A DNA stretch of 64,000 nt from Streptomyces chromofuscus (GTDB lineage Bacteria; Actinomycetota; Actinomycetes; Streptomycetales; Streptomycetaceae), in the NCBI RefSeq assembly GCF_015160875.1, contig NZ_CP063374.1, positions 248,001 to 312,000 of the forward strand. The letters run 5' to 3'. Positions 24,658-55,597 of the stretch are shown here, piece by piece. Position 1 is the first letter of the stretch, and each line of letters starts with the position of its first letter. Both the position numbers and the translations under genes were made by a program. The notes beneath the pieces were generated by a model, which saw only the letters and a program-made list of their open reading frames with translations, was not told the origin of the DNA and did not search any database.

Positions 24658-25517
24658 ATGACTGGTGCGGACATGCGTCGGCCGATCGTGGTGGGGCTCG
24701 CCCGGGACCTCTCGAAGCGGCCGGCCCTTACCCGGGCCGCCGACGGGATGAAGTCTCGTGACCTGCCCCTGCCGCCCGTCCACACCGGAAGTGAGTTGGC
24801 CGGCGCACACCGGTCGGGCGAAGCGCGGCCGTCCTGGGAGGAGTGGAACCGGGCGCTGCACGGCCTGGGCGATCAGGTACTCGAGGAGGCGGTCGCCTCG
24901 TCGAGTCCCGGCGCCCGGCCCTGGAGGCGTCGACGCTGCCGGCGGGAGCAGAGGCGGCATGGTTCCTGGGCGACGAGGCACCAGGGCGCCGCCCTGGTCG
25001 TGGCGGGCTCCCGGCACCACAGTCGGTGGCGGGAGCTTTCCTCCGCCTCCGTGGCCCTCCACTCACCGCCCACCCTCCCTGCCCGATCACGGTCGTACCG
25101 GAGCCGCAACACATGACCCAGCAGCCCGCGTACTTCGTCGGCGTCGACGGCGGCCCGCATACGGCCGCGGCAAAGGATGTGGCCTTCCACGAGGCCCTGC
25201 GCGGAACACTCCTGCGAGCCCTGTACGTGTGGCATCCGCCGCCCCTCGGCGTCCTCGGCGAGGCAGCCGCAGTCCGGGAGTGCCGCCCGGTGCTCGCCAA
25301 GACGGTCGCGGGCCGCACCGCGACGCCACCGCGAGTGAACCCGCACCACGAGGTCCTGCGCGGACACCCGGTGCAGATCCTGACGGAGGCCTCGGAACAC
25401 GCCCTGGGCCCGTTCGTGGGAACCGGGGGGCAGGGACGGTCCACCCGTATGCTGCACCCGGTCGGCCACGGGGTACCGCACCACGACCGCTGCCCCGTCA
25501 CCACGGTCCTGGCGTGA
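24658..25517 (+). pseudogene. Universal stress protein gene, decayed by frameshifts
   Basis: It begins like a tandem-UspA protein (RRPIVVGLARDLSKRPALTRAAD, then SWEEWNRALHGLGDQVLEEAV). The reading frame then changes to give RLVESRRPALEASTL, back to ALVVAGSRHHSRWRELS, and again to CPITVVPEPQHMTQQPAYFVGVDGGPH and HEVLRGHPVQILTEASEHALG. At least three indels break it, and the normal GxxG ATP-loop near the end is degraded. It lies directly upstream of the P-type ATPase gene at the left edge of the dormancy island. Confidence 0.8.
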
Positions 25518-25532
25518 GGCCGCGAACGGCCC

Positions 25533-25546
25533 GGGACCTGCCTCCC
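25533..25546 (+). promoter_or_regulatory. Weak DosR-box-like site upstream of the ATPase
   Basis: GGGACCTGCCTCCC, 57 bases before the ATPase start, resembles the 14-bp core GGGACTWWAGTCCC of mycobacterial DosR boxes in its outer arms only. The match is partial. Confidence 0.3.
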
Positions 25547-25602
25547 GGACGGCCCTGTCGTACCCGGCCGGCCCGCCACACGATGGGAAAGCGCCACCGG
25601 TC

Positions 25603-28437
25603 ATGAGCGGCGAACAGGCAAGCACGGACCCGTTGCCCCCGGACGGAGGGCGGGACGAGGCGGTCGGTGCCACGTCCGGTTCCAGCCCGCGTCCCCCGGT
25701 ACCGGCCCTCCCGGCCGGTGAGGTCTTCACCGCGCTGGGCACGTCACGGCGCGGCCTGCCGACGGCTCGGGCACGGGCCACGCTGGAGAGGTGCGGGGCC
25801 AACGAACTGCCGCGCGCGGGGCGGCGCGCCGTGTGGCGCCAGTTGGGGGCCCAGTTCACGGACCTCTTCGCGGTGGTGCTGATCGTCGCCTCGGGGATCA
25901 CCTTCCTGGCGTACGCGCTGGAGGAACCACGCGAGGTGGGCACCCTGCAGCTGGCGGTGGCCATCCTGGGGGTCGTGGTGCTGAACGCCGGGATCGGTTT
26001 CGCGCAGGAGTACTCGGCCGAGCGGACGGCTGAAGCGCTGGAGGCGATGGTGCCCCACACCTGCCGGGTGCTGCGCGGCGGTGAACGGCTGGAGGTGCCC
26101 GCCCGGGAGCTGGTGCCGGGTGACGTGGTGGTGCTGGAGGCCGGGGACGCCGTGTCGGCGGACTGCCGGGTGGTCGAGGCCCACGAGCTGGCCGTGAACA
26201 ACGCGCCGCTGACCGGGGAGAGCAACGCCGTGGACCGTACGGCCGACCCGGTGGCCACCGGACCGCCGTTGGAGGCCCGCAACTGCGTGTTCATGGGGAC
26301 CGACGTCGTCGCCGGGTCCGGCCGGGCCGTCGTCTTCGCCACCGGCGCGGCGACCGAGTTCGGGCGTATCTACCGGCTCGCCGCGGCCGCCCCGCGGCAG
26401 AAGACCCCGCTGCAGCTGCAGGTGGCCTCGATGGCGCGACGGGTGGCGGGGGCCGCCCTGGCGATCGGCGCCCTGATGTTCGCCGTGCGACTGCCCACCG
26501 GGGAGTCCCCGGTGACCCTGTTCGTGTTCGCACTGGGTGTGATGGTGGCACTGGTGCCGGAAGGGCTGCCCGCCACGCTGTCGGTGTCACTGGCCATCGG
26601 CGTCCGGCGGATGGCACGCCGCCATGCCCTGATCAAACAGCTGCTGGCCGTGGAGGCGCTCGGGTCGACCACGGTCGTGTGCACCGACAAGACCGGGACG
26701 CTCACCCAGGCGGAGATGACCGTCACCCAGGTGTGGGCGGGAGATGCGCCGCACTCCGTGAGCGGTGTGGGGTACGAGCCGAGCGGCGAGGTCGCCGACG
26801 TGACGCCGATACGCGAGGTGCTGCGGGTGGCGGGCCTGTGCAGCAACGCCCGGTTGGTTCCCCCCACGGGCCCTCGGGAGCACTGGCGGGTGCTCGGTGA
26901 CACCACGGAGGGAGCGCTGCTCGTCGCGGCGGCCAAGGCCGGACTCGATCTGGGTGCGGAGGAGGCGGCGGCGCCGCGAGTGACGGAGTTCCCCTTCGAC
27001 TCGGCCCGCAAGTTGATGACCACGGTGCACAAGACCGGCGCGGGCTATCAGGCGTGCGTCAAGGGGGCGCCCGGAGAGCTGCTGGCGCGGTGCACGGAAG
27101 TGGAGTGGGACGGGCGGCGTGGGCCGCTGAGCGGAGCGGACCGGGCCGCGGTCGTCGCGGCGAGTGACGCGCTGGCGTCGCAGGGGCTGCGGGTGCTGGC
27201 CGTCGCGCGGCGGGAGCTGGACGGGCCCCGGCCGGCGCAGGAGGAGGCCGAGTCGGCGCTGACCCTGCTGGGACTGGTCGGCATGCTGGATCCGCCACGT
27301 CCGGAGGTCACCGACGCGGTCGCCACCTGCCGCCGGGCCGGCATCCGGATCGTCATGGTCACCGGCGACCACCCGCTGACCGGGGAAGCCGTGGCCCGCC
27401 GCGTGGGAATCGTACGGCGGCCCGATCCGGTCGTGGCGACGGGCGCCCGGCTCGACGCGATGGACGACGAGGCGCTCGACGCGCTGCTCGCCCAGCCGTC
27501 CGAGCTGCTGCTGTGCCGGGTCAGCCCGGAGCACAAGATGCGTGTGGTCACCGCCTTCCAACGGCGTGGAGAGGTGGTTGCGGTCACCGGGGACGGCGCC
27601 AACGACGCCCCGGCGCTCAAACACGCGGACATCGGCGTGGCGATGGGTGCCTCGGGGACCGACGTGGCCCGGGAGGCGGCCTCGATGGTGCTGCTGGACG
27701 ACTCGTTCGCGTCGATCGCGAGGGCGGTGCGGCTCGGCCGGGCCGTCTACCAGAACATCCGTAAGTTCCTCGTCTACCTCTTCAGCCACAACATCGGGGA
27801 GCTGGTCCCGATCCTGGCGGCGACCTTCGCCGGTTTCCCGCTGGTGCCCATCAGCGCGGTGCAGATCCTGGCGATCGACCTGGGCTCCGATGTACTGCCC
27901 GCCCTGGCCCTGGGAGCCGAACCGCCGGAGCCCGACGTGATGGAACGCCCGCCGCGCTCACGACGGGAACGGCTGTTTTCGGCCCCCGTGGTGGGACGGA
28001 TCCTGTTCCTCGGGGGCATCCAGGCGGTGTGCGTCACCGCCGTCTTCTTCTGGCACATCGATGCCTCGGGCATTCCCTTCGACGACTTCACCAAGGACAC
28101 GCCCGCCTACCAAGAGGCGATCACCATGGTCCAGGCCGGGATCGTGCTCAGCCAGTTCTTCAACGCGCTCGCCGTGCGCACCGACCGCCAGAGCATCCTG
28201 AAGGTGGGACTGCTGTCCAATCCGGCCCTGCTGGCGGCGGGCGGTTTCGGCGTCGCCCTCATGGCCGCCATCAGCTATCTGCCGCCGCTGCAGGCCGTCT
28301 TCAACACCGCCCCGCTCGACGCCGCCGACTGGGCGGTCCTCACCGGGCTCGGCACCGTGCCTCTGCTCGCGGACGAAGCCCGCAAAGCCTGGCTGCGCCG
28401 CCGCGCCGAGCGCCAGAAGGAGGGAGCGCAACGATGA
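25603..28437 (+). CDS. P2-type cation-transporting ATPase (CtpF-like)
   Basis: 944 aa integral membrane pump. Actuator motif PLTGESN, phosphorylation motif CTDKTGTLTQ (Asp362), nucleotide-site MVTGDHPLTG and hinge VTGDGANDAPALKHADIGVAMG are all intact. The membrane motif VPEGLPATLS marks the Ca2+/Na+-type P2 group. Mycobacterial CtpF, its likely counterpart, is controlled by DosR. The N-terminal ~40 residues are a disordered Pro/Gly stretch. The stop overlaps the next gene's ATG (ATGA), so the ATPase and two TrkA genes form an operon. The transported ion is inferred as Ca2+ or a related cation. Confidence 0.9.
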   Translation: MSGEQASTDPLPPDGGRDEAVGATSGSSPRPPVPALPAGEVFTALGTSRRGLPTARARATLERCGANELPRAGRRAVWRQLGAQFTDLFAVVLIVASGITFLAYALEEPREVGTLQLAVAILGVVVLNAGIGFAQEYSAERTAEALEAMVPHTCRVLRGGERLEVPARELVPGDVVVLEAGDAVSADCRVVEAHELAVNNAPLTGESNAVDRTADPVATGPPLEARNCVFMGTDVVAGSGRAVVFATGAATEFGRIYRLAAAAPRQKTPLQLQVASMARRVAGAALAIGALMFAVRLPTGESPVTLFVFALGVMVALVPEGLPATLSVSLAIGVRRMARRHALIKQLLAVEALGSTTVVCTDKTGTLTQAEMTVTQVWAGDAPHSVSGVGYEPSGEVADVTPIREVLRVAGLCSNARLVPPTGPREHWRVLGDTTEGALLVAAAKAGLDLGAEEAAAPRVTEFPFDSARKLMTTVHKTGAGYQACVKGAPGELLARCTEVEWDGRRGPLSGADRAAVVAASDALASQGLRVLAVARRELDGPRPAQEEAESALTLLGLVGMLDPPRPEVTDAVATCRRAGIRIVMVTGDHPLTGEAVARRVGIVRRPDPVVATGARLDAMDDEALDALLAQPSELLLCRVSPEHKMRVVTAFQRRGEVVAVTGDGANDAPALKHADIGVAMGASGTDVAREAASMVLLDDSFASIARAVRLGRAVYQNIRKFLVYLFSHNIGELVPILAATFAGFPLVPISAVQILAIDLGSDVLPALALGAEPPEPDVMERPPRSRRERLFSAPVVGRILFLGGIQAVCVTAVFFWHIDASGIPFDDFTKDTPAYQEAITMVQAGIVLSQFFNALAVRTDRQSILKVGLLSNPALLAAGGFGVALMAAISYLPPLQAVFNTAPLDAADWAVLTGLGTVPLLADEARKAWLRRRAERQKEGAQR

Positions 28438-29093
28438 AGGTGATCGTCGTCGGCTGCGGTCGGGTGGGCGCCACGCTCGCCGGTCTGCTCGCCTCGGAGG
28501 GGCACGACGTGCAGGTCGTCGACCGGCGTCCCCAAGCGGCCCGGCGGCTGCCCGACAGCCCGCGCATCCGCTTCCACGAGGGCAACGGCTTCAGTCGCGC
28601 CGTGCTCCAGAGCGCCGGCGTCGAGCACGCGGACGCGTTCGTCGCCGTCACCTCCGGGGACAACAGCAACATCGTCAGCGCACGCACGGCGAAGGAGACG
28701 TACCGCGTACCGATCGTCCTCGCCCGCATCTACGACCCCCGGCGCGCTGACATCTACCGCGAACTGGGCATCCCCACCATCGCCAGCGTCCGCTGGACCG
28801 TGCACCGGATCCACCAGATGCTGCTGCACCGCCACCTCAGTCCCGAACTCAGCTTCGGCAATGGGGAGACCCTGCTCGTCCGCTCGGAGGTGCCCGGTTA
28901 CCTCACAGGGCGGCGGCTGACCGAGTTCGACGTCGACGGCGAGATCCGCGTCGTCGAGGTCACCCGCGCGGGCCGCTCCCTCATCCCCGCGCACAGCACG
29001 CCCGCGCAGGCCGGCGACCTGGTCACCTTCGCCGTCGCCGCCGGCGCGCTCGGCAGGCTGCGCGGCTTCCTCGACAAGGAGCTGGGGACGTGA
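28434..29093 (+). CDS. TrkA-family potassium uptake regulatory protein
   Basis: 219 aa. An N-terminal Rossmann NAD-binding (TrkA-N/RCK) domain begins MKVIVVGCGRVGATLAGLLASEGHDVQVVD, with the acidic residue that ends the second strand. A C-terminal TrkA-C domain covers about residues 140-219. The start is fixed by AGGAGG at 28419 and the 4-bp overlap with the ATPase stop. The next gene also overlaps by 4 bp (GTGA). It gates K+ transport on nucleotide binding; the membrane partner is not next to it, though a channel-like gene lies at 45.7 kb. Confidence 0.92.
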   Translation: MKVIVVGCGRVGATLAGLLASEGHDVQVVDRRPQAARRLPDSPRIRFHEGNGFSRAVLQSAGVEHADAFVAVTSGDNSNIVSARTAKETYRVPIVLARIYDPRRADIYRELGIPTIASVRWTVHRIHQMLLHRHLSPELSFGNGETLLVRSEVPGYLTGRRLTEFDVDGEIRVVEVTRAGRSLIPAHSTPAQAGDLVTFAVAAGALGRLRGFLDKELGT

Positions 29094-29746
29094 ACGTGAT
29101 CATCGCCGGTGCGGGACGTCTCGGCACCCAGATCGCCCAGGTGCTCTCCGCGGCCCACAACGAGGTCACGCTGATCGATGTGGACGACGACCGCGTGGCC
29201 GAACTGGAGGGCCGCATCCCGGTGCACCTGGTCACCGGGGATGCCTGCGAGCCTGCCCTCCTGGAGCACGCCGGTGCGCTCACCGCCGACCTGGTCATCG
29301 CCACCACCGGGGACGACGAGGACAACCTCGTGATCAGCCTGCTCGCCAAACGGCAGTTCTCGGTGCCCCGTGTGGCCGCTCGGGTCAACGACACGGACAA
29401 CGCCTGGCTGTTCGACGCACGCTGGGGCGTCGACGTCGCGGTCCCCGCCGCCACGCCCCTGGTGTCCCTCATCGAGGAGGCCACCGGGGCCACCGACACG
29501 GTCGCCCTGCTGCGGCTCAGCAAGGCCGGCGTCGACGTCATCGAAACGGCGATCACACCGCAGTCCAAGGCGGTGGGCAGAACCTTGGGCGACGTTGCGC
29601 TGCCCGAGGGAACGGTCGTCGCCACGATCGTCCGCGACGGGCAGCCGACCGTGCCGGATCCGGCGGTCCCGCTCCGGGCGGGCGACGAGATCCTTCTCGT
29701 CTCGCACTCCGCGACCGAGCAGGAGATTCACGCGGCGTTCCAGTGA
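29090..29746 (+). CDS. TrkA-family potassium uptake regulatory protein, second copy
   Basis: 218 aa from GTG 29090. It has the same TrkA-N (NVIIAGAGRLGTQIAQVLSAAHNEVTLIDVDDDR) plus TrkA-C layout as the gene before it, and the two probably form a heteromeric RCK assembly like the mycobacterial CeoB/CeoC pair. The overlap GTGA indicates translational coupling. The gene is the last of the operon, and the convergent universal stress gene begins 55 bp further on. Confidence 0.92.
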   Translation: MNVIIAGAGRLGTQIAQVLSAAHNEVTLIDVDDDRVAELEGRIPVHLVTGDACEPALLEHAGALTADLVIATTGDDEDNLVISLLAKRQFSVPRVAARVNDTDNAWLFDARWGVDVAVPAATPLVSLIEEATGATDTVALLRLSKAGVDVIETAITPQSKAVGRTLGDVALPEGTVVATIVRDGQPTVPDPAVPLRAGDEILLVSHSATEQEIHAAFQ

Positions 29747-29801: not shown

Positions 29802-30692
29802 TCAGTGACCCTCCTCCGCTCCCCGCACGATCGCGACCGGGCAGTGGGCGTGGTGCAGCAGGGCCTGGCTGACCGACCCCATGAGCAGTCCGGCGAATCC
29901 CCCGCGCCCTCGCGCGCCGACCACCAGAAGCTGAGCGGACCGACTGGCGTCGATCAGTGCCTCCCGCGTGCCGCCGTGCACCACCCGGTACTCCACCGCC
30001 ACCCCCGGGAAGCGCTCCTGACGGCCGGCGAGCGCCTCGTGCAGCAGTCGCTCCTCCGCCTGGGCCAGCGCGCCCGGAGGGTTCGCGTACGGCATCGACG
30101 GGTCCTGTGGTGCGGGCATCGGCGCGTTCCACGTGGTCCAGGCGTGCAGCGCCGCCAAGGGCGCACTCCGCAGGGCGGCCTCGGCGAAGGCGAAATCGAC
30201 GGCCTTCTGCCCCGCGGCCGAGCCGTCGACGCCCAGCAGGATCGGGCCGTCGTCGCGAGGCCGGTCACGCACCACCAGTACCGGACAGCGGCCGTGCGCC
30301 GCCAGATGGACCGCCGTCGACCCCACCAGCAGCCCGACGAACCCGCCCATGCCCCGGGAACCGACCACCACGAGTTCCGCGCCGCGCGACTGCGCCTCCA
30401 GCACGGTCAACGGCTCACCGGTGACGACGACGTGACGGACGTCGACGTCCGGCGCTCCGGTCCGCGCCCGCTCCACCGCCTCGGCCACCAGGCGGTCGAC
30501 CTCGTTCTGCGGCCCGTCCTCCGGCGGTCCCGGCGCCGACCGCCCCAAGGGCACATGCGTCGCGGGCCAGACCACCGCGTGCACCACCCGCAGCCCCGCC
30601 CCGCGCAACCGCGCCTCCCGTGCGGCCACCTCCACCGCGGCAAGGCTCGACGCCGAACCGTCAACGCCGACGACCACGAGACCACTCACCAT
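29802..30692 (-). CDS. Universal stress protein, tandem UspA domains
   Basis: About 296 aa from ATG 30692; a GTG three bases later (30689) has better spacing to GGGAGG and may be the real start. Two UspA domains: first VVVGVDGSASSLAAVEVAAREA with ATP loop VGSRGMGGFVGLLVGSTAVHLAAHGRCPVLVV, second ILLGVDGSAAGQKAVDFAFAEA with VGARGRGGFAGLLMGSVSQALLHHAHCPVAIV. Both loops keep GxxGxxGS-type nucleotide residues. Mycobacterial tandem Usps such as Rv2623 are dormancy-induced ATP binders. It is divergent from the CBS-BON gene. Confidence 0.93.
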   Translation of the reverse strand: MVSGLVVVGVDGSASSLAAVEVAAREARLRGAGLRVVHAVVWPATHVPLGRSAPGPPEDGPQNEVDRLVAEAVERARTGAPDVDVRHVVVTGEPLTVLEAQSRGAELVVVGSRGMGGFVGLLVGSTAVHLAAHGRCPVLVVRDRPRDDGPILLGVDGSAAGQKAVDFAFAEAALRSAPLAALHAWTTWNAPMPAPQDPSMPYANPPGALAQAEERLLHEALAGRQERFPGVAVEYRVVHGGTREALIDASRSAQLLVVGARGRGGFAGLLMGSVSQALLHHAHCPVAIVRGAEEGH

Positions 30693-30993
30693 GCCTCCCA
30701 CAAGAATGCCGTTGCCTCTCACCTCCAGGTTCACCCAGCCCACGCCCCTCTGCCGAACGCTCCTGCGGGCCCCGGGAAGGGCCCTGTCCCTTCACGGGGT
30801 AGGAACACCGAAAGCCAGTGGCACCGCAGGGCACGGACCCGGTGCCGGGTGCCGATGGCCTCCGTGCCCACCCGCCGGGCGGCGGCGCGGGGCCGGTGTC
30901 CTCACGAGCGCGCTCGGCCTTCTGCCCGCAGGCCGCACCAATCGATCGATGCGAAACTGAGCCGTAGGTGGACGGCGTTACCAGGAGGCAGCC
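30693..30993. other. Divergent promoter region between Usp and CBS-BON genes
   Basis: 301 bp that must drive both genes. It contains a GC-rich near-palindrome (GGGAAGGGCCCTGTCCC, about 30774-30790) and an AGGAGG ribosome site at 30981 for the CBS gene. No clean DosR-type box was found. Confidence 0.4.
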
Positions 30994-31854
30994 GTGAGCG
31001 ACTTCGAGCACAGCTCCGGGGAGAGGGATGCCCGCCGCACCACGCCGGGCCGCCCCTGGACACCCGCCGAAGAGCAGCGCAAGGACGCGTTGCGCCGCTA
31101 TCTCGGGGCAGTGGCCGCCGTCGCGTCGGCGAGGAGCGCCGAGGAGTCGGAGCGTGCTCTTGGCGGAGAGAGGTCGGAACCGCCGGTCACCGTCTCGCCC
31201 GGGCCGCCCGTCCAGGAGCCGACTGTTCTGCGGGTGCGGGACGTCATGCGGGTTCCGGCGGTCTCGGTCCCCGGCGACATGCCGTTCCTGGACGTGGCCC
31301 ACACACTCGCCCGCGAGCAGGTGAGCGCCGTACCGGTGGTCGACGCCGACGACCACGTGATCGGCGTCGTCTCGGAGTCGGACCTGCTGGCCAAGGCCGC
31401 CGTCATGGCGGAACCGCACCGGCACGGACCCGTGGGCAGGCTGAGGCGGCACCGCCTGTACGAGAAGAGCCACGGCGACACGGCGGCGACACTGATGACC
31501 TTCCCGCCGGTCACGGTCCACCCGGCGGAGCGCGTGGCGGACGCCGCGTGGACCGCCGCCCACGCTCGGCTGAAGCGACTCCCCGTGACCGACTATCGCG
31601 GTCGGCTCGTCGGTGTGGTGAGTCGGCGAGACCTGCTGCGTGCCCTCATCCGTGACGACGCCGACATCCGGGCCGAGGTCGAGTCGCTGGTGGGTCGGTA
31701 CGTGCCGGACCCGCGCGCCGTCGAGGTCACGGTGGAGAACGGCGCGGTCACCATCAAGGGGCGACTGGACAAGGCCGTCGTCCCTGAACTGCTCGCATCG
31801 GTGCGGGAGATCGATGACGTCATCGATGTCGTCGACGACGTCGAGGCGGTCTGA
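30994..31854 (+). CDS. CBS-domain pair plus BON-domain protein
   Basis: 286 aa from GTG 30994, with AGGAGG eight bases upstream. A disordered, charged N-terminus (about 1-75) precedes two CBS motifs (VRDVMRVPAVSV to VIGVVSESDLLAK, and LMTFPPVTVHPAERV to GVVSRRDLLRALI) and a C-terminal BON domain (about 225-286, VEVTVENGAVTIKGRLD). CBS pairs bind adenine nucleotides, and BON domains bind membranes or partners. A truncated, decayed relative is at 51.9 kb and a shorter intact relative at 43.1 kb. Confidence 0.93.
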   Translation: MSDFEHSSGERDARRTTPGRPWTPAEEQRKDALRRYLGAVAAVASARSAEESERALGGERSEPPVTVSPGPPVQEPTVLRVRDVMRVPAVSVPGDMPFLDVAHTLAREQVSAVPVVDADDHVIGVVSESDLLAKAAVMAEPHRHGPVGRLRRHRLYEKSHGDTAATLMTFPPVTVHPAERVADAAWTAAHARLKRLPVTDYRGRLVGVVSRRDLLRALIRDDADIRAEVESLVGRYVPDPRAVEVTVENGAVTIKGRLDKAVVPELLASVREIDDVIDVVDDVEAV

Positions 31855-31993: not shown

Positions 31994-33022
31994 TCACTCT
32001 CGCTGCAGCATGACTTTGAGGGCGCCGGTGGTGGGGCCGCCTGCGAACACCTCGTAGGCCTCCTCCATCCGATCGAGTGCCAGGGTGTGGGTGACCAGCT
32101 GGGAGACGTGCAGGCGTCCGTACCTCACCAGCTCCAGCAGCCAGGGTGTCGAGGATGTGTCCACCTGGCCCGTGCTGATCATCAAGTTCTTGCGCCACAG
32201 GGATTCGAGATGCAGTGTCACCGGTTTGCCATGGGTACCGATGATGGCGATGTGTCCCCCCGTGCGGACGGAGCGGGTGCACAGCGCGAAGCCCTCCGGT
32301 TCCCCCGACGCCTCGATGACCACGTCGGCTCCCGGCCCTTCGGACAGTTCGGCGATCATCGTCCCCGGAAGTTCCGCGGCATCGGCACCCACACGGAGTG
32401 CGGCCTCCAGCCGGGCGGTGGACAGGTCCACCACGATGATCCGGCGGGGCGAGTAGAGACGTGCCACGGCCACGGCGGCGAGACCGACGGGACCCGCGCC
32501 CACCACGACGACGGTGTCGCCCGGTCCCACGTGTCCGTTGCGCACCCCCACCTCGTTGGCTGTGGGGAGGACTTCGGCGAGCAGCACGGCGTCCTCGATC
32601 GCCAGGGCACCGGGCCACCGTCGGGTGGAGTGGTCGGCGAAGGGGACCCGTACGAACTCGGCCTGTGTTCCGTTGATCAGGTTTCCCAGGATCCAGCCCC
32701 CGCCGCCCTGACACTGTCCGAACAGGCTGTGCCGGCAGAACTGGCAGCGGCCGCAGGCCGAGACGGACGAGACGATCACCTGATCGCCCGGAGTGACGGA
32801 GTGGACCTCACGGCCGACGCTCAGCACCTCACCGACCGCCTCGTGCCCGAGGACGGTTCCCGGCTTCACCTCGGGCAGGTCGCCGTGCAGGATGTGCAGA
32901 TCGGTGCCGCAGACGGTGGTGGCGTCGACGCGCACGACGGCGTCGGCGGGGTCCTCGATCGCTGGATCCGCGACCGTGTCCCAGGAGATCTGCCCGGGGC
33001 CGTGGTAGACGAGGGCTCTCAT
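31994..33022 (-). CDS. Zinc-dependent alcohol dehydrogenase
   Basis: About 342 aa from ATG 33022. Medium-chain ADH: catalytic zinc ligands in TTVCGTDLHI and GHEAVG, structural-zinc cysteines in SACGRCQFCRHSLFGQC, and Rossmann motif VVGAGPVGLAAVAVARLY near residue 172. The frame is open upstream but conserved sequence starts at MRALVYHGPG. It could reoxidise NADH by reducing aldehydes when oxygen is short, which suits the island, or act in the other direction. The substrate is not determined. Confidence 0.92.
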   Translation of the reverse strand: MRALVYHGPGQISWDTVADPAIEDPADAVVRVDATTVCGTDLHILHGDLPEVKPGTVLGHEAVGEVLSVGREVHSVTPGDQVIVSSVSACGRCQFCRHSLFGQCQGGGGWILGNLINGTQAEFVRVPFADHSTRRWPGALAIEDAVLLAEVLPTANEVGVRNGHVGPGDTVVVVGAGPVGLAAVAVARLYSPRRIIVVDLSTARLEAALRVGADAAELPGTMIAELSEGPGADVVIEASGEPEGFALCTRSVRTGGHIAIIGTHGKPVTLHLESLWRKNLMISTGQVDTSSTPWLLELVRYGRLHVSQLVTHTLALDRMEEAYEVFAGGPTTGALKVMLQRE

Positions 33023-38600: not shown

Positions 38601-38980
38601 TGCATGGCGGGGCCTCCGTCTCCTGCGAAGCTTGACATGACGCGGTGGACGACGTGCGCGCGACCGCCGGCGTGGAGGGTCCGGACATCGTCGGCGAACG
38701 AGGTGCGATCCCTCACTCGACCCTTCTTCATTCGAGAAGTACCCCAATCCACCCCACGGCGCATGTGGACCTGCGTACGAGGGCGACCAGGACGCGGGAG
38801 CAGCACGAGTCCCGCGCCGATCCGTTCGTCGTGAGGACCCGCAGGCGACTCGGCACACCGGTCTGCACCTGGTCGGGTCAACCACGCGGTACTGCATCAC
38901 GCGCCGTTTCCGGTCGCCGACCGTGGTGGTGCTCGGGTCGGGAGCTGCAGGGGCCGGATGGGGCCGAGTGCTGGTCAGCA

Positions 38981-38994: not shown

Positions 38995-39076
38995 AGTGAC
39001 CGGGGACTGTCGCCGTCGGAAGGTGGGGTGGGAGAAACTTGTGGGGGACGCACCAGCGACAGCTGGAGGCCAGACC

Positions 39077-47035: not shown

Positions 47036-47073
47036 GGGGACCAACGGACCCCACGGACGGGGCCCATGTGGCT
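47036..47073 (+). promoter_or_regulatory. Paired DosR-box-like dyads upstream of the hydrogenase operon
   Basis: GGGGACCAACGGACCCC (47036-47052) is followed by GGGGCCCATGTGGCTC (47059-47074). The first is a near-perfect dyad with the GGGAC/GTCCC-type arms of DosR boxes. The second shares GGGCC and ATGTGGC with the dyad at 52249. They lie about 95-130 bp before the first hydrogenase gene. Hypoxic control is inferred. Confidence 0.55.
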
Positions 47074-47167: not shown

Positions 47168-48337
47168 ATGAGTGCCGACACCGACGTGAACGCTGTCCCG
47201 TCCCCGGAGCCCGAGGGGCTCGTGATGGGCAAGGACGGCATGGCGGCGCTCGTGGACGTTCTGGTCCGGCGTGGGTTCACCGTGGTCGGACCCACGGTGC
47301 GGGACGGTGCGATCGTGCTGGCGGAGCTGCTGTCGGCCGACGAGCTGCCGTACGGATGGGGCGTGGAGCTGGAGGCCGGGCGGTACCGGCTGCGGGAGCG
47401 GTCGGACGGCGCGGCCTTCGCGAACGCGGCGGGTCCCCAGTCGTGGAAGTCCTTCCTGCATCCGGCGCGGGTACGGGAGTGGAGCGCCGACCGGGTGGAG
47501 GGGGAGCTGGTCCTCACTGCCGACCAGGCCGCGCCCCCGCGGTACGCCTTCCTGGGTGTGCGCCCGTGCGACCTGCGGGCCATCGCCATCCAGGACCGGG
47601 TACTGACCGGCGGCGCGTACCGCGATCCCACCTACGCGGGGCGTCGCTCCGGCGCCCTGCTGATCGTGGTCGAGTGCACGGAGCCCGGTGCCACGTGCTT
47701 CTGCGTCTCGATGGGCACCGGACCCGCTGCCGGGCCGGGCTACGACCTGGTGATGACCGAAGTGGTCGACGGGGACGGGCACCGCTTCTGGGTTCGCAGC
47801 GGCAGCGAGGAAGGCGCGGAGATCCTGGCCGAGGTGCCCGCTCGTCTGTCCGACCCGGAAACCCGGGAGACGGCTCGCGCAGCCGTCACGGCTGCCGCGG
47901 ACCGCATGGGACGGACCATGCCGGAAGCCGACCTGCGGGAGCTGATGGCCGGAACGCTTGACGCGCCCCGCTGGGACGACGTCGCCGGGCGGTGTCTGAC
48001 CTGCGGCAACTGCACCATGGTGTGCCCCACCTGCTTCTGCACCACTACGGAGGACGTCACGGACCTCACCGGTGATCACGCGGAGCGGTGGCGGTTGTGG
48101 GACTCCTGCTTCGACCTGGACTTCTCCCATCTGCACGGCGGGCCGGTCCGCGCCTCCGCGCGTAGCCGCTACCGGCAGTGGATGACCCACAAACTCGGCA
48201 CCTGGTACGACCAGTTCGGCTCGTCCGGTTGCGTGGGCTGCGGGCGCTGCATCGTGTGGTGTCCCGTCGGCATCGACATCACCGAGGAAGCGGCTGCCCT
48301 GCACGACTGGACGGCAGCGGAGTCGAAGGGGGGATGA
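47168..48337 (+). CDS. hydB: [NiFe] hydrogenase beta subunit, 4Fe-4S electron-transfer protein
   Basis: About 389 aa from ATG 47168, with AAGGAGG seven bases upstream. It matches the HydB/HyhB subunit of group 3b (cytosolic, NADP-linked) hydrogenases. N-terminal domain includes [20 protein letters not shown] and [25 protein letters not shown]. Two Fe-S cluster motifs follow: [16 protein letters not shown] (Cys276 on) and [16 protein letters not shown] (about 355 on). It passes electrons between the small subunit and the flavin subunit. The stop overlaps the next ATG (ATGA). Confidence 0.92.
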
Positions 48338-49152
48338 CCACCGTGCCGCCCCCGCTGCCGTACCGCGTCGCCGACGCCTGGGCCGAGACCGCCGACACCC
48401 GGTCGATCGAGCTGGTACCGGCCGGAGAAGCGCTCGCACCCTTCTCACCGGGTCAGTTCGCGATGATCTACGCCTTCGGGGTCGGTGAGGTGCCCATCTC
48501 GGCCAGTGCCCTGCGCGGCCGCCACGGGGGTCTTGTGCACACGGTGCGCGCGGTGGGCGCGGTCTCGACCGCGCTGTACCGGCTGCGTCCTGGTGACACC
48601 GTCGGACTCAGCGGGCCGTACGGCACAGGCTGGGACCTCGAATCGGCAGCCGGACACGACGTACTGGTGGTCGCCGGCGGCATCGGGCTGGCTCCGCTGC
48701 GACCGGTCGTGCACACGGTCCTGGACCGGTCGGCCGAGTACGGTCGGCTCGCCGTCGTGGTGGGTGCCCGCACTCCTGTCGACCTGGTCTTCCGGGACGA
48801 GATCGAGAGGTGGCGCGGCCCGGCCCGGGTGGAGGTCACCGTCGACCGCCCCGGTCCGGGCTGGCAGGGCGCGGTGGGCGTGGTCACCACCCTCCTCGAC
48901 CACCTCGACCTGCACCCCGAACGGACCTGCGCGCTGGTGTGCGGACCCGAGGTGATGATGCGGCACACCGCACGCGATCTCGTGACCCGCGGGCTGGTTC
49001 CGCACCGCGTCCAGGTGTCCTTGGAACGGAACATGCACTGCGCCACCGGCCATTGCGGCCACTGCCAACTCGGCCCGCTCCTGCTGTGCCGGGACGGCCC
49101 GGTCGTCGGCTACGACCGTGTGGCGGACCTGCTCCTCGTGAGGGAGTTGTGA
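48334..49152 (+). CDS. hydG: [NiFe] hydrogenase gamma subunit, FAD/NAD(P)-binding
   Basis: About 272 aa from ATG 48334. Ferredoxin-reductase-type protein: FAD-binding barrel ([47 protein letters not shown]), NAD(P)-binding domain ([30 protein letters not shown]) and a C-terminal [2Fe-2S] site ([17 protein letters not shown]). It links the hydrogenase to NAD(P)H. Order beta-gamma-small-large is that of group 3b sulfhydrogenase-type operons. Only one base separates it from the small-subunit gene. Confidence 0.92.
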
Positions 49153-49153: not shown

Positions 49154-50002
49154 ATGGTCACCGAACTTGGCCCGGCCATACGCACACGGCCGACACTCGC
49201 CGTGTGGAAGTTCGCCTCCTGCGACGGCTGCCAGCTGACCCTCCTCGATTGCGAGGACGAACTCCTCGGCCTCACCGAACGCGTTCGGATCGACCACTTC
49301 GTGGAGATGACCCCGGCCGAGGGCGCCGACCGGGAGCGTGCGCGGCTGGAGGGCCGGGGGCCGTACGACCTGTCGCTGGTCGAGGGGTCGATCAGCACCG
49401 CCGAGGACGCCGAGCGGATCCAGCACGTCCGGCACATCTCCCGGTACCTCGTGACCATCGGAGCCTGCGCCACCGCGGGCGGCATCCAGGCGCTGCGCAA
49501 CTTCGTCGACGTCAACGACTTCCTCGCCGCCGTCTACGCCCAGCCGGAGTACATCGCCACCCTGGAGACCTCGACACCGATTTCGGCCCACGTGCCGGTC
49601 GACTTCGAACTGCGGGGGTGCCCCATCGACCGCCGCCAGCTCCTCGAAGTCATCAACGCCTACCTGGCCGGACGCAAACCCCAGATCTCGAATCACAGCG
49701 TCTGTTTCGAGTGCAAGAGGCGCGGCACCACCTGCATCACGGTGGCCCACGGCACCCCCTGCCTGGGCCCGGTCACGCACGCGGGGTGCGGCGCCATCTG
49801 CCCCGCCTACGGACGCGGCTGCTACGGCTGCTTCGGGCCGTCGAGCAAACCCAACCTGCGCGCCATGATCGCGCAGTTGCGCCACGACGGGATGAGCGAG
49901 CGGGACATCCAGCGTGTCTTCCGCACCTTCAACGCCGCGTCACCGGACTATGCCCCCGTACCCGACCTCGCGGCCGAGGAGCAGCAGAGCCCTCCGGCCT
50001 GA
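49154..50002 (+). CDS. hydD: [NiFe] hydrogenase small (delta) subunit
   Basis: 282 aa. The proximal-cluster signature is [15 protein letters not shown] (Cys23, Cys26), with the third and fourth ligands expected in [10 protein letters not shown] and RGCPIDR. A Cys-rich C-terminal half follows: [15 protein letters not shown] and [19 protein letters not shown]. There is no Tat signal peptide, so the enzyme is cytoplasmic, as expected for group 3. It forms the catalytic dimer with the next gene's product. Confidence 0.93.
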
Positions 50003-50027: not shown

Positions 50028-51374
50028 ATGAACGATCGCGGAACCCGCGTCCTGCGACTGGACGCGCTGGCCAGGGTGGAGGGCGAAGCCGCCCTCCACC
50101 TACGCGTCGCGGGCGATTCGGTCGCCGAGACGCGGCTGCGGATCTACGAACCGCCGCGCTTCTTCGAGGCCTTCCTGATCGGCCGCGGCCACACGGAACC
50201 GCCCGACATCACCGCCCGCATCTGCGGCATCTGCCCGGTCGCCTACCAGATGAGCGCCTGCCAGGCGATCGAGAACGCCTGTGGTGTCACGGTGGACGGT
50301 CCTCTCGCGGAACTGCGCCGCCTGCTCTACTGCGGGGAGTGGATCGAGAGTCACACGCTGCACATCTACCTGTTGCACGCCCCGGACTTCCTCGGGCGCG
50401 CCGACGTCGTGGAACTCGCCCGCGACCAGCGAGCCGTCGTCGAGCGCGGCCTGAGAATCAAGCAGACCGGCAACGCGATCCTGGAACAGCTCGGCGGCCG
50501 CCCCATCCACCCGGTCAACGTCCGGGTCGGCGGCTTCTACCGAACCCCGGGACGGGAGGAACTGCGTCCGTTGGAGGAACGATTGCGGCAGGCCCGGGAG
50601 GACGCGCTGGAGACCGTCCGCTGGGTGGCGACGTTCGACTTTCCCGACGTCGTGTGCGACCACGACCTGTTCGCACTGCGCGACCCCGGCCGCTACGCGA
50701 TCGACTCCGGAACACCGGCGGTCATGGCCGCTCAAGGCCAGGGCCCGGCGCTGCGCGAGTTCAACCTGGCCGAATTCGAACAGCACATCCGGGAAGGGCA
50801 GGTACCGCACTCCACGGCTCGCACGAGCGCACTCGACGGCCGCCGCTACTTGACTGGTCCGCTGGCCCGATACGCGATCAACGGCCGCTGGCTTCACCCC
50901 GTGGCCACCGAGGCGGCGCGGGAGGCCGGCTTGGGCGATCCGTTGACCGGCGCCGTCTGCCAAAACCCCTTCCGCAGCATCGTCGTGCGCGCCGTGGAAG
51001 TGGTACAGGCCATCGAGGAAGCCCTGCGGATCATCAGCAGATACGAACGACCTCCCCGCCCGGCCGTCGAGGTCCCGCCGCGCCAGGCTGCCGGCACCGG
51101 GGCCACCGAGGCGCCCCGGGGCCTGCTGTACCACCGCTACGCCCTCACCGAGGACGGCACGCTCACCGAGGCACGCATCATCCCGCCCACGGCCCAGAAC
51201 CAGACGGCCATCGAGGAGGACGTGCGCAAGGCCGTCCAGGCGCGTCTGGAGACGGCCGGACCGCCCGCCGACGACGAGGAGCTCACCCATGTGTGCGAAC
51301 GGGCCATCCGCAACCACGACCCTTGTATCTCCTGCGCCGCCCACTTCCTCGACGTCACCGTGGAGCGCACATGA
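50028..51374 (+). CDS. hydA: [NiFe] hydrogenase large (alpha) subunit
   Basis: About 448 aa from ATG 50028, with GGAAAGG upstream. Both nickel-binding motifs are intact: RICGICPVAY (Cys66, Cys69) and DPCISCAAH (Cys433, Cys436, His439). Only nine residues follow the His, the tail expected to be removed by the endopeptidase encoded next. It splits or makes H2. The upstream reading frame is longer but has no homology. The stop overlaps the protease ATG. Confidence 0.94.
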   Translation: MNDRGTRVLRLDALARVEGEAALHLRVAGDSVAETRLRIYEPPRFFEAFLIGRGHTEPPDITARICGICPVAYQMSACQAIENACGVTVDGPLAELRRLLYCGEWIESHTLHIYLLHAPDFLGRADVVELARDQRAVVERGLRIKQTGNAILEQLGGRPIHPVNVRVGGFYRTPGREELRPLEERLRQAREDALETVRWVATFDFPDVVCDHDLFALRDPGRYAIDSGTPAVMAAQGQGPALREFNLAEFEQHIREGQVPHSTARTSALDGRRYLTGPLARYAINGRWLHPVATEAAREAGLGDPLTGAVCQNPFRSIVVRAVEVVQAIEEALRIISRYERPPRPAVEVPPRQAAGTGATEAPRGLLYHRYALTEDGTLTEARIIPPTAQNQTAIEEDVRKAVQARLETAGPPADDEELTHVCERAIRNHDPCISCAAHFLDVTVERT

Positions 51375-51850
51375 GCGGCCGGGTCGTGGTGATCGGCGTG
51401 GGCAATCCCCTGCGCGGTGACGACGGGGTCGGTCCGGCGACAGTGGAGGCGTTGCGGGGCCTCGTCCCGGACGGAACCGTCCTGACGGTCAGTGACGGTG
51501 AACCCGCACGCATGCTCGATCTGTGGCGCGGCGCGGACACGGTGGTCGTGGTGGAAGTCCTCCGTGCACAGCCCGCCCGGCCGGGGAAGCTGCACACTCT
51601 CACAGCGGCGGACGCGGCCTCGCGAACAGCGCGTACGGCGAGCACCCACGCGCTCGGCCTCGGCGAGTGCCTTGCGTTGGCGCAGGCGCTCGGGCAGTTG
51701 CCGCAGAGGCTCGTGGTGCATGCCATGGAGGTGACGGACGTCGAACTCGGCGCACCCCTGAGTGAAGCGGTGCGGTCGGCGCTCCCCGAACTGGTCGACC
51801 GGGTCGCCGCTTCCGTCCGGCAGGCCCACGGACCGAACCACGAGCAGTAG
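51371..51850 (+). CDS. hycI: Hydrogenase maturation endopeptidase
   Basis: About 159 aa from ATG 51371 (ATGA overlap with the large-subunit stop). HybD/HycI-type peptidase fold: VIGVGNPLRGDDGVGPATVEAL at residue 5 contains the conserved Asp, followed by VVVVEVLRAQPARPGKLHTL and STHALGLGECLALAQAL with the His-containing metal site. It removes the large-subunit C-terminal tail after nickel insertion. The common GNxLxxDDG motif reads GNPLRGDDG here. No hypABCDEF genes are in the window. Confidence 0.92.
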   Translation: MSGRVVVIGVGNPLRGDDGVGPATVEALRGLVPDGTVLTVSDGEPARMLDLWRGADTVVVVEVLRAQPARPGKLHTLTAADAASRTARTASTHALGLGECLALAQALGQLPQRLVVHAMEVTDVELGAPLSEAVRSALPELVDRVAASVRQAHGPNHEQ

Positions 51851-52326: not shown

Positions 52327-53232
52327 GTGTCCCGAACCGTCACCGTCGGCCTCGACGACTCGCCCGAAAGCCGGGCGGCAGCCGAGTGGGCGGCTCGCGA
52401 AGCGTTGCTGCGTGGACTGCCCCTGAAAATCGTGTACGCCCAGGAGCCGACACCCAAACAAGTCGCCCGTACCCCGTTGCTGGACCTGGACAGTTATCGG
52501 CACTGGGCTCAGCAGTTGACGCAGGAGGCCGCGGACGGCATCCGGCTTCGTCACCCGGGCATCGAAGTGACCACCGAGCAACTGACGGGGACCGTGGCCG
52601 ACGTCCTGTGCGAGGCGGCGGGCTTCGCCGAGCTGCTGGTGCTCGGCTCGCGGGGCCTCGGCGGACTCGGCGGTTTCATGGTCGGCTCGGTGAGTCTGGG
52701 TGTCGTGGCCCGTGCCGAGCGTCCCGTGGTGCTCGTTCGGGCCCAAGAGCAGGCCACCGACGAGCACAGGACGGACCCGGCGGGCGTGCCGTCCGCTGCG
52801 GCGCCGTTCCGTCCCGTCGTACTGGGCCTCGACATCGATCACCCGGACGACACGCTGCTGGAATTCGCCTTCGACGCAGCCGCTCGCCGGGAAGCTGCTC
52901 TACGGGTCATTCACGCCTGGCCCGCACCGGCCACGTCCTTCTACCGCTTCGCCGGTGACGTCGAACTCCACGACACGTTCGAGCGCGGGCAGGCCTCACT
53001 CCTGAGCAAGGTGCTGCGTGCCTGGCGGCAGAAGTTCCCGGACGTCGAGGTGATCGAGGCGAGCCGGTGCGGCAGCGCCGCCCAAGTCCTCGTCAACGGG
53101 TCCCGTGACGCCTCGCTGGTGGTCGTAGGCCGGCAGATCCGCACTGGCTCCTTCGGCGCTCACATCGGCCATGTCACGCACGCGGCCCTTCATCACATCA
53201 CCGCCCCCGTCGCGGTCGTCGCGCACAGCTGA
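52327..53232 (+). CDS. Universal stress protein, tandem UspA domains
   Basis: About 301 aa from GTG 52327, seven bases after GGGAGG. First domain: TVGLDDSPESRAAAEWAAREALLRG with loop LGSRGLGGLGGFMVGSVSLGVVARAERPVVLV. Second: VVLGLDIDHPDDTLLEFAFDAAARR, ending VGRQIRTGSFGAHIGHVTHAALHHITAPVAVV, where the ATP loop is changed (GAHIGHV). The same half-degenerate pattern occurs in the proteins at 44.5 and 54.7 kb. Two dyads precede the gene. Confidence 0.92.
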   Translation: MSRTVTVGLDDSPESRAAAEWAAREALLRGLPLKIVYAQEPTPKQVARTPLLDLDSYRHWAQQLTQEAADGIRLRHPGIEVTTEQLTGTVADVLCEAAGFAELLVLGSRGLGGLGGFMVGSVSLGVVARAERPVVLVRAQEQATDEHRTDPAGVPSAAAPFRPVVLGLDIDHPDDTLLEFAFDAAARREAALRVIHAWPAPATSFYRFAGDVELHDTFERGQASLLSKVLRAWRQKFPDVEVIEASRCGSAAQVLVNGSRDASLVVVGRQIRTGSFGAHIGHVTHAALHHITAPVAVVAHS

Positions 53233-53600: not shown

Positions 53601-53797
53601 AGGCAGCTCAATGCCTCACGGCCAGTGAAGAGACGTCCGACCGCGGGCAGGAGGCGGATGTGTCAATCGGCGCTGGGCCGCGCAAGAGGGGTTGGCGGCG
53701 TCGAGAGGTGTCACCCAATGGCTGTGGTCGCACCTGTCCCCGCCCCCTGGCCGCGGACGGCATGAGGCTACCGCCGGGGCGGCCCGCCCAGTCGCGT

Positions 53798-54652
53798 TCA
53801 GGGTCTGGCGAGCGGCGACCTGTCCAGGAGCACGATACCGGCCACGGCCATGGCCGCACCCAGCGCCTGCACGACCAACGCCCCAGTCGACGAAGCGAGT
53901 TGCTCGCCGAAGACCGCCACACCGATCAGCACGGCGGTCATGGGTTCCAGGGTGTCGATGAGCGGCAGACTGATGGCCAGCGAGCCGGCCTGGTAGGCGC
54001 TCTGCGCCACGATCAGCCCCGTCAGGCCGACGAGAACCACCGCATACGGCTCCCAGTGGGCCAGAGCCCCGAGCCCGTCGGCCCGGAAGCGTCCCGCCGT
54101 GCTCTTGGTCAGGCTGTCGAGCAGGGCCAGCAGCAAGGCCGCGCCGATCGCGTAGAGGGCCGTGCGCGTCGGCGCACGGCTCCGGCGTCCGGTCTCCGCC
54201 AGCAGCACCACCGCGCAGCTGATCGCAAGGATCACGGGCAGCCACTCACGCGCCGCGGGAACGGCCGAGCCCTCGGGAGACGGTGGCAGCGCCGTCAGGA
54301 ACAGCGCCACGCCGCCTGCCGTGCAAGCGATCCCGGCCACCTCCAGGCGAGTCATTCCCACTCGGCGGCGCCACGCGAGCAGCGGCAGGGCGAAGAGGAG
54401 GTCGGTGGCCGCGAGCGGCTGGACCAGGATCAAAGGACCGAAGGCCAGCGCCAGACCCAGCAGCGCGTAGGAGGAGACGACCAGGATCATGCCTGCCAGC
54501 CACCTCGGACGGCGGCCCAGATCCAGCACGAGCCGGAGCCGCATCGACTCCCGCGCGGGTGCCTCCTGCGCCGCCTCCTGCTGGATCACCGACCCGACTC
54601 CGAAGCTCAGGGCAGCCAGCAGGGCGGCCACCACCGCGACAACCGTACTCAT
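53798..54652 (-). CDS. EamA-like DMT-family transporter
   Basis: 284 aa with about ten hydrophobic helices in two halves. The first helix is STVVAVVAALLAALSFGVGSVIQQEAA, and the last pairs are LIGVAVFGEQLASS and ALGAAMAVAGIVLL, the usual close of the drug/metabolite transporter superfamily. The DMT subgroup with QQ in helix 1 is common next to stress genes in actinomycetes, substrate unknown. The ATG 54652 has only a weak ribosome site. The universal stress gene lies 75 bp upstream on the same strand. Confidence 0.85.
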   Translation of the reverse strand: MSTVVAVVAALLAALSFGVGSVIQQEAAQEAPARESMRLRLVLDLGRRPRWLAGMILVVSSYALLGLALAFGPLILVQPLAATDLLFALPLLAWRRRVGMTRLEVAGIACTAGGVALFLTALPPSPEGSAVPAAREWLPVILAISCAVVLLAETGRRSRAPTRTALYAIGAALLLALLDSLTKSTAGRFRADGLGALAHWEPYAVVLVGLTGLIVAQSAYQAGSLAISLPLIDTLEPMTAVLIGVAVFGEQLASSTGALVVQALGAAMAVAGIVLLDRSPLARP

Positions 54653-54727
54653 GAGCCGAGCTTTGCCGCAGGGAGGAACACGGCCGACTCCGACACGCTG
54701 GACGACGGGACCAGCCGGTGGGACCCG

Positions 54728-55597
54728 TCAGTCGTGGGCGATGACGGCGACCGGCGCAGGACAGTGGTGCAACACGGCATGGGCGACCGACCCTATGTGC
54801 GTACCCAGCGGGGCCCTGCGTGCGCGCCGGCCGACGACCACGAGGTCCGCATCGCCCGCCGCGTGCAGCAACCGCATGGTGGGACCGCCGACGGGCGTGC
54901 ACTCCACGACGTCGACCGACGGAAACCTCTCCCGCCAGGGCAGCAGCATGTCGGCGAGGCGCCGAGCGATGTCGGGGCCCATGTCCCGCTCGGCCGCCGC
55001 GAGAGCGCAGGCGTCGCGGACGACCGGCGGCAGTGACCAGCCGTACACGGCCCGAAGGGTGCATCCGTGCCGTGCGGCTTCCTCGAACGCGAACGCGAGG
55101 AGGGCGTCGCAGGCATGGTGGACGTCCACCCCGACGACCACGTCGCGGCGCCATCGACCGTCCGGTCGCTCATCGTCCGGGTGCTGCGCCCCCCGTACGA
55201 GCACGACCGGACGGTCGGTGGCGCCGATCGTGGCCAGGCCGACCGACCCGACCAGGAAACCCTTGACGCGGCCGAGTCCGCGCGAGCCGAGCACCAGCAT
55301 GTCCGCCTCGGCCGCCTGGGCGGCCAGGACCGATGCGGGGCGGCCGGACTGGCGCACCGTGGCGACCTCGATGCCGGGGCGGTCCTGGGCCACGTCGCTC
55401 GCGGCGTCGGCGAGCACTTTGTCCGCCCATTGATGCTGCTCCAGCGCGACCGACGGACCCGGCGCGGAACCCGACCACTGATCGACGAACACCATGCGCA
55501 GATCCACCCCGCGAAGCAGCGCCTCGTCGGCGGCCCATTCCGCCGCACGGAGGCTCTCGGCCGAACCGTCCACGCCCACGGTCAGGTGGCGAGACAT
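54728..55597 (-). CDS. Universal stress protein, tandem UspA domains
   Basis: About 289 aa from ATG 55597, with GGGAGG upstream. First domain: HLTVGVDGSAESLRAAEWAADEALLRG with loop LGSRGLGRVKGFLVGSVGLATIGATDRPVVLV. Second: VVVGVDVHHACDALLAFAFEEAARHG, ending GRRARRAPLGTHIGSVAHAVLHHCPAPVAVI; the second loop keeps GTHIGSV. It closes the dormancy island on the right. The DMT transporter gene follows on the same strand. Confidence 0.92.
   Translation of the reverse strand: MSRHLTVGVDGSAESLRAAEWAADEALLRGVDLRMVFVDQWSGSAPGPSVALEQHQWADKVLADAASDVAQDRPGIEVATVRQSGRPASVLAAQAAEADMLVLGSRGLGRVKGFLVGSVGLATIGATDRPVVLVRGAQHPDDERPDGRWRRDVVVGVDVHHACDALLAFAFEEAARHGCTLRAVYGWSLPPVVRDACALAAAERDMGPDIARRLADMLLPWRERFPSVDVVECTPVGGPTMRLLHAAGDADLVVVGRRARRAPLGTHIGSVAHAVLHHCPAPVAVIAHD

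Follow-up and report, generated by a model that had tools for sequence, protein, structure and literature searches.

A stretch of the Streptomyces chromofuscus chromosome (hereafter the window; 64,000 nucleotides, bases 248001-312000 of the single 7.48-Mb contig NZ_CP063374.1) carries an island of dormancy-type genes, counterparts of those of the mycobacterial DosR regulon, and within it a five-gene operon for a group-3b-type hydrogenase. We consider it likely that the OsdK-OsdR pair induces both when oxygen is low and that the enzyme stays immature in this strain. The arrangement is of a known kind, a DosR-hydrogenase module as in Mycobacterium smegmatis, here in a variant with distant regulators. 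New here is an intact hydrogenase operon without a detectable maturation set apart from its protease in this assembly, which is rated 100% complete and consists of one contig.

In the mechanism that we propose, OsdK would sense oxygen through heme and, together with OsdR (both genes lie about 550 kb away), would induce the hydrogenase operon at low oxygen, with OsdR binding a site at 47036 (window positions are given unless stated otherwise). In relatives, the 3b enzyme would dump surplus NAD(P)H electrons on protons as H2, served in trans by the hyp set located beside a second, group-1h-type hydrogenase. Loss of this 1h-linked hyp cluster would strand the 3b operon and leave the enzyme inactive here.

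The hydrogenase operon and its maturation genes

The operon (47168-51850) consists of five adjacent genes, all with open reading frames (ORFs). Gene models were obtained with an in-house codon-position caller, and start positions are approximate.

47168..48337, plus strand: hyhB, 4Fe-4S beta subunit (NF040829, 118 bits; PF17179)
48334..49152, plus strand: hyhG, FAD/NAD(P) gamma subunit (NF006220, cytochrome-c3 hydrogenase gamma, 181 bits; PF00175)
49154..50002, plus strand: hyhS, small (delta) subunit (NF040831, 160.5 bits)
50076..51374, plus strand: hyhL, large (alpha) subunit (NF040828, 237 bits; best solved match sulfhydrogenase 1 alpha)
51371..51850, plus strand: hydrogenase maturation protease (TIGR00072, 111 bits, cut-off 47)

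The best NCBIfam families were sulfhydrogenase subunits for HyhB, HyhS, and HyhL and a hydrogenase gamma subunit for HyhG; the sulfhydrogenase equivalog cut-offs were not reached (237 vs 700 and 208 vs 880 bits), and these models define two particular enzymes rather than group 3b. The highest-scoring solved structures for HyhL were sulfhydrogenase 1 and a cytosolic NiFe-hydrogenase, with sulfhydrogenase 1 alpha (199.5 bits) ahead of the methyl-viologen-reducing (158 bits) and NAD-reducing (142 bits) types. Both CxxC pairs of the NiFe site are kept in HyhL (CGIC near residue 50 and CISC near residue 417), and the beta, gamma, delta, and alpha subunits are encoded together. HyhL was nearer to 3b than to 3a, 3c, 3d, or group 1 large subunits, in a ranking by solved matches rather than a reference-set tree. 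Judged by these families and structures, the hydrogenase is assigned to the group-3b type, in agreement with an earlier reading of the window made from the sequence only. The four-subunit plan is that of sulfhydrogenase I, which we take to be a group 3b enzyme of Pyrococcus furiosus, although the subunits of the window score far under the equivalog cut-offs.

Among the maturation genes, which bear on activity and not on descent, only the protease gene was found in this genome. Neither hypD (PF01924) nor hypF (TIGR00143) gave a match, and hypE (TIGR02124) gave two, of 56 and 41 bits, against a cut-off of 251.6; this profile matched all 14 control genomes and exceeded its cut-off in only four. 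When the 8.6-kb hyp cluster of G379, the relative closest by HyhL, was compared as DNA with this genome, no match longer than 77 bases was obtained. The contrast with relatives was assessed in 392 genus genomes, an even draw from a larger group. Matches to hypD occurred in 218 of them, including all 74 other carriers of near-full-length HyhL (571 bits or more; 75/392 genomes), with a weaker match in one (G097), and 144 of the 317 genomes without near-full-length HyhL. This genome is thus the one case in 75 of an intact hyhL without hypD. Fragments of hyhL were seen in G212, G349, G335, G319, G123, and others; five of the eight genomes with only fragments (30 bits or more) were without hypD, though drafts may cut genes. 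These fragments suggest repeated decay of the hydrogenase within the genus.

The location of the hyp genes in relatives points to what may have been lost. In 11 of 13 loci of clade-A carriers (HyhL at least 79% identical), a 1h-type large subunit is encoded no more than 20 kb from the hyp set; the two exceptions are G084, whose contig ends too early, and G169, which has osdRK in the vicinity instead. In G379, the hyp set stands at the contig start, at the very end of the contig. Elsewhere among streptomycetes, hyp genes often flank the 3b operon itself: hypD did so at 21 of the 45 Streptomycetaceae loci in a named-locus sample comprising the best 80 of 568 confirmed HyhL loci (12 of the 80 from other phyla). 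The gene that immediately precedes hypX in G117, G281, and G080 also occurs here, at genome position 2048-2590, with no hypX behind it; next comes a hemerythrin-like gene that shares 40% identity with a gene beside the 1h genes of G117. This arrangement fits a deletion, suggestively only, since the neighbouring genes are otherwise unlike. An attempt to place the missing cluster by end collinearity with G379 was abandoned because of too little collinearity.

Because hypD, hypF, a hypE above cut-off, and hyp-cluster DNA were all not found, the hydrogenase is probably stranded in an immature state in this strain, and the working H2-linked module proposed by the sequence-only reading finds no support here. 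Several observations weigh against this interpretation. The hyhL gene is not decaying: its dN/dS is 0.16-0.32 against eight relatives, and its dN to the outgroup is 0.183, compared with 0.149-0.185 in relatives (rows for the mis-oriented G003, G101, G211, G084, G278, and G080 were left out). No relaxed selection was seen in these values; hyhL still shows purifying selection, with unassembled hyp genes or a very recent loss as possible reasons. For hypA, hypB, and hypC, the search covered only the cluster DNA from a single relative. The first base of the contig already falls within an ORF, and the two 20-kb ends have no inverted repeat in common; terminal DNA, or a plasmid bearing hyp genes, may therefore be absent from the assembly. 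On the regulatory side, OsdR-like sites in the island are few (6/34 upstream gaps) and the one before the hydrogenase is weak. As for the history of the operon, a recent horizontal gain was unsupported, since dS of hyhL exceeds that of gyrB and is near or above that of parE in most pairs with this genome.

Less favoured, on the same evidence, is a fully functional hydrogenase whose hyp genes lie in unassembled ends or on a plasmid, the island then being a DosR-type hypoxia module of the ordinary sort. The invariable hypD of the other carriers, the purifying selection on hyhL, the terminal position of the G379 cluster, and the two contig ends without a common repeat would all agree with it. Against it, no trace of hyp was found in this one-contig genome, which is rated complete, and the hypX-neighbour gene was assembled and is followed by other genes.

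The dormancy-type island and its recurrence

Reading from 25603 to 55597, the gene order is a P-type ATPase, two TrkA proteins, a universal stress protein (Usp), a CBS protein, three dehydrogenase-like genes, an XRE regulator, an Rv2004c-like kinase, an Rv1733c-family protein, nicotinate phosphoribosyltransferase (NAPRT), an Rv1738-like protein, Hsp20, an HTH-pyridoxamine oxidase-like protein, a CBS-BON protein, a cyclic-nucleotide-binding-fold (CNB) protein, a Usp, an ion channel, the hydrogenase operon, a Usp, an EamA-like transporter, and a Usp. Genes without a profile or structure match were named by eye.

24828..25509, plus strand: decayed Usp gene (69.7% DNA match to a Usp gene of G379; no PF00582 match)
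25603..28437, plus strand: P-type IIA cation ATPase, CtpF-like (TIGR01522, 621 bits, cut-off 798; PF00689, PF00122; start uncertain)
28434..29093, plus strand: TrkA-N K+ transport regulator 1 (PF02254, 87.5 bits)
29090..29746, plus strand: TrkA-like protein 2 (by sequence reading; adjoins TrkA1 and CtpF in G117, G146, and G080)
29802..30743, minus strand: tandem Usp (PF00582 twice, 199.8 bits)
30994..31854, plus strand: two-CBS protein (PF00571, 93.8 bits)
31994..33022, minus strand: zinc-type alcohol dehydrogenase-like (by sequence reading; a 79% homologue adjoins the hydrogenase in G117)
33119: OsdR-like site near the alcohol dehydrogenase-like gene (score 11.3)
36808..38388, minus strand: Rv2004c-like kinase protein, AAA_33 (PF13671, 94.8 bits)
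38980..38995: OsdR-like site AGGGACCTTCGGCCCA in the Rv2004c-like/Rv1733c-like intergenic gap (score 13.4)
39077..39694, plus strand: Rv1733c-family protein (NF050032, 177.6 bits, cut-off 80; start uncertain)
39738..41126, plus strand: NAPRT, PncB2-like (PF17767, 82.3 bits)
41123..41452, plus strand: Rv1738-like protein (best solved match 4wpy, DL-Rv1738, 61.7 bits, 6.8e-16; PF08962)
41455..41910, plus strand: Hsp20 chaperone, HspX-like (PF00011, 77.4 bits)
42161..43036, plus strand: DUF1918, HTH, and pyridoxamine oxidase-like protein (PF08940, PF01381, PF12900)
43079..43756, minus strand: CBS-BON protein (PF00571, PF04972)
43782..44240, minus strand: CNB protein (PF00027, 49.9 bits, sole Pfam match)
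44548..45420, plus strand: tandem Usp (PF00582 at genome 292560-293408)
45748..46626, plus strand: two-helix ion (K+) channel (PF07885, 44.2 bits)
47036..47051, plus strand: OsdR-like site GGGGACCAACGGACCC, 133 bp upstream of the hyhB match (score 9.4, shuffle p 0.02)
52228: weak OsdR-like site by the Usp gene at 52327 (score 8.9)
52327..53232, plus strand: tandem Usp (PF00582 at genome 300333-301220)
54728..55597, minus strand: tandem Usp (PF00582 at genome 302740-303597)

The counterparts of mycobacterial DosR genes claimed for this block were thus recovered by profile or structure matches; the CtpF, PncB2, HspX, and Rv2004c labels are presumptive, being based on domains rather than on a tree. 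Two details were revised. The proteins previously called Hrp1 are present as CBS or CBS-BON proteins, and we replaced that label with the domain names; the proposed block start at 24658 takes in the decayed Usp copy (about 24828-25509). Nine of the 24 Usp ORFs in the genome (a hand grouping of 43 PF00582 matches) lie within about 71 kb (binomial 7e-13), and dormancy-type genes extend past the window to about 345 kb of the chromosome.

Reference proteins of this genome and G379 were used in tblastn to score the genes around the 80 HyhL loci, and twenty 20-kb segments, hand-picked elsewhere in genus genomes, served as controls. Among the 45 Streptomycetaceae loci, Usp genes stood near hyhL at 32 and CBS-BON genes at 33, whereas none of the 20 controls had either (Fisher p 3e-8 and 8e-9, respectively). 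The other neighbours at these loci were CNB (39), PPOX (14), GH65 (13), OsdR (6), and OsdK (5). The controls, likewise free of CNB and OsdK matches, did hold AcsA-like (3), weak OsdR-like (31-39%; 2), FdhA-like (2), GH65 (1), and FdhF-like (1) genes. With these streptomycete reference proteins, no Usp or CBS-BON gene was found near hyhL at the 12 other-phylum loci. In G117 and G146, the neighbourhood includes acetyl-CoA synthetase-pyruvate dehydrogenase (PDH), TrkA, CtpF, and OsdK-like genes, with an OsdR-like gene also in G146. Outside the genus, a 246-genome draw from the class contained 24 genomes with a HyhL match, of which 14 were analysed; an OsdR- or OsdK-like gene lay within the 20-kb stretch in 10 of these, one of them by a weak 44% OsdR match alone, and the OsdR match reached 58-60% in four (L256, L257, L258, and L266).

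These counts indicate that the coupling of hydrogenase and dormancy genes is not by chance, and the predicted link recurs in Streptomycetaceae and in other families of the class. To call the block a conserved unit would be too strong: gene content and order around the hydrogenase differ between relatives, only 75 of the 392 genus genomes are carriers, and an OsdR-like gene lies within about 10 kb of the hydrogenase at only six of the 45 Streptomycetaceae loci.

Hyd3 of M. smegmatis, which we take to be the same as Hyh, has the same five-gene order and also stands beside DosR-type genes; the present case differs in the distance of osdRK, about 550 kb, and in the key hyp genes, which were not found in this genome. 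Passages of one report give MSMEG_3931-3927 as five hydrogenase genes in the order beta, gamma, delta, alpha, protease, adjoining, as judged by locus numbers, the DosR-type cluster MSMEG_3932-3955, and record a 67-fold rise of the hyd3 beta gene at 0.6% oxygen saturation (PMC2799521). Hyh is counted in the dos regulon and rises at low oxygen, according to passages of two further papers (PMC8125079, PMC13098282). Since M. smegmatis has the same arrangement and OsdR- or OsdK-like genes accompany most of the class loci, comparative evidence places the arrangement before the streptomycetes, as an actinobacterial theme and not a streptomycete invention.

The CNB protein was considered as a possible partner of the enzyme. 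A Pfam scan of the protein found no DNA-binding domain. Of the 74 loci at which the order of hyhB and hyhG was clear (it was unclear at six of the 80), 59 have a gene of this family between the two, including loci of Methylocystis, Nitrospinaceae, and Verrucomicrobiota, and the window copy lies about 3 kb upstream of the operon, adjoining the CBS-BON gene. In a 77-row tree, the two CNB copies of this genome that were included nested among operon copies. The tree required nine switches between an operon and an island position, and 31 of 74 inner branches were weak. The family consensus reads GWSWLxPPYxW at what we take, by comparison with CAP, to be the phosphate-cassette position of cAMP-binding relatives. 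Since 326 of the 392 genus genomes carry the family and only 75 the hydrogenase, CNB is not tied to the hydrogenase, and its candidacy as a dedicated subunit was weakened.

A CNB-fold protein, HoxI, accompanies the bidirectional hydrogenase of Ralstonia eutropha, and CNB genes also occur in the 3b operons of R. equi and of an alphaproteobacterial methanotroph, as described in passages of two papers (PMC12319191, PMC13332983). The likeness to HoxI is one of fold and gene context alone, a CNB fold encoded near a bidirectional-type hydrogenase, and the window gene differs from those genes in its distance from the operon. That the CNB and CBS-BON proteins gate the hydrogenase post-translationally by nucleotide or redox-cofactor sensing, in a HoxI-like role, would accord with the position between hyhB and hyhG in several phyla and with the nesting of both copies among operon copies; we consider it unlikely, given the excess of CNB genomes over hydrogenase carriers and the many weak forks of the tree.

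OsdR/OsdK and OsdR-type boxes

The devR and devS homologues that the sequence-only reading proposed to seek were found in the genome, but about 550 kb from the island and not in the block. They lie at genome 842.7-845.2 kb (osdR/osdK), with Usps, PPDK, a phosphoketolase-like gene, an alcohol dehydrogenase (ADH), and an Rv1738-like gene as neighbours. The best solved match of the OsdR-like protein was DevR, and those of the OsdK-like protein were DevS-type GAF domains, putatively of the heme type. The pair keeps the His before PPM and the KTVKN segment, to which we presumptively assign their usual roles.

Sites were scored with a matrix built from published OsdR sites of S. coelicolor. Raw site density over the whole window was at background (0.62 vs 0.56 simulated per 10 kb), and the test was therefore redone on upstream gaps and across relatives. 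Sites were present in 8/12 upstream gaps of the osd locus, 6/34 of the island, and 5/127 of control arms, with a density of 0.41 per kb in island gaps versus 0.079 per kb in control arms (p 0.012). Upstream of hyhB, a box at p 0.05 against shuffles was detected at 26 of 51 streptomycete loci, 8 of 20 other actinobacterial loci, and 2 of 11 others, compared with 2 of 87 control segments inside hyhL; because the loci are related, these counts are not independent events. The best hyhB-upstream site, significant or not, fell at -140 to -85 in 30/51 streptomycete loci. The weak site of the window stands where the best site lies in six relatives, at -131 to -134 (G379, G146, G369, G281, L094, and L095), with p <= 0.05 there in only G379, G369, and L095. 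A comparison with segments of the same loci (14/82 at p<0.05, none at p<0.01) was set aside as insensitive, because these loci hold other boxes. With the S. coelicolor matrix, only 3/14 class loci from other genera had a site at p<0.05. Taken across relatives, the OsdR-type boxes favour co-regulation of the hydrogenase.

A general build-up of conditionally used genes in chromosome arms, without a single regulated module, is improbable: the sparse island sites, the shuffled gene order, the mostly missing collinearity between the arms of G379 and this genome, and the rarity of OsdR-like genes near hyhL would fit it, but the control segments without Usp, CBS-BON, or CNB, the concentration of boxes upstream of hyhB, and the similar neighbours in other families of the class speak against it.

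With the OsdK-OsdR regulon of S. coelicolor, described in passages of one report as local clustering across SCO0167-SCO0219 of Usps, a Crp-like gene, ADH, and PPDK with an OsdR box (PMC5069765), the present genes share all of these features. The two species differ in that S. chromofuscus has, with the island, a second location for genes of this kind. The word hydrogenase is absent from the main text of that report. Among the papers listed by searches of an open library, no title, abstract opening, or checked passage linked OsdR, DosR, or group 3b to a Streptomyces hydrogenase; the one paper that joins these terms uses 'hydrogenase' for NuoF in the passage concerned.

Implications and neighbouring genes

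Streptomycetes are counted as obligate aerobes. The enzyme is encoded in a fifth of the sampled genus genomes, frequently together with OsdR-type boxes, and fermentative H2 release in anoxia thereby becomes testable in harmless soil streptomycetes, which could serve as a model for the DosR response of mycobacteria. The strain of the window, with an intact operon and no assembly line, is a natural test of the dependence. More tentatively, the arrangement may be a class-wide module of DosR-type control, Usp/CBS proteins, and a 3b hydrogenase, in which the 'Crp-like' proteins of dormancy would be former hydrogenase partners and, in this strain, hyp loss would only just have orphaned the operon.

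The extension of the island beyond the window holds a NuoF-like/molybdopterin pair and, named by eye, another P-type ATPase, GH65, CBS-BON, phosphofructokinase, aldolase, acetyl-CoA synthetase, and pyruvate dehydrogenase. The pair (genome 316.6-320.5 kb, about 17 kb from the hydrogenase) resembles an NAD-linked formate dehydrogenase and could couple formate with H2 via NAD(P). Acetyl-CoA synthetase/PDH genes adjoin the hydrogenase in G117, G146, G281, and the class loci L255 and L260, and two adjacent OsdR-like sites (scores 11.2 and 16.5) precede such a gene run at L003:13624-13662. A short NAPRT remnant adjoins a second Rv1733c-like gene at L002:16219-17083, which looks like a portion of the island that was duplicated and later decayed.

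A third cluster at genome 6655-6675 kb (L005) contains Usp and nitroreductase-like genes, identified by eye, and OsdR-like sites in 4/8 upstream gaps. A second OsdR-like regulator, 64% identical, is encoded at genome 4155385-4156023 (L010) and is perhaps the counterpart of the orphan SCO3818. At the edge of the window (62679-64000, continuing in L002:1-1575), asparagine-synthase-like, PqqD-like, and small protease-like genes and a short peptide ending in ...GLAGTGSPDLLGGHSLL were recognized by eye, a set that suggests a lasso-peptide cluster.

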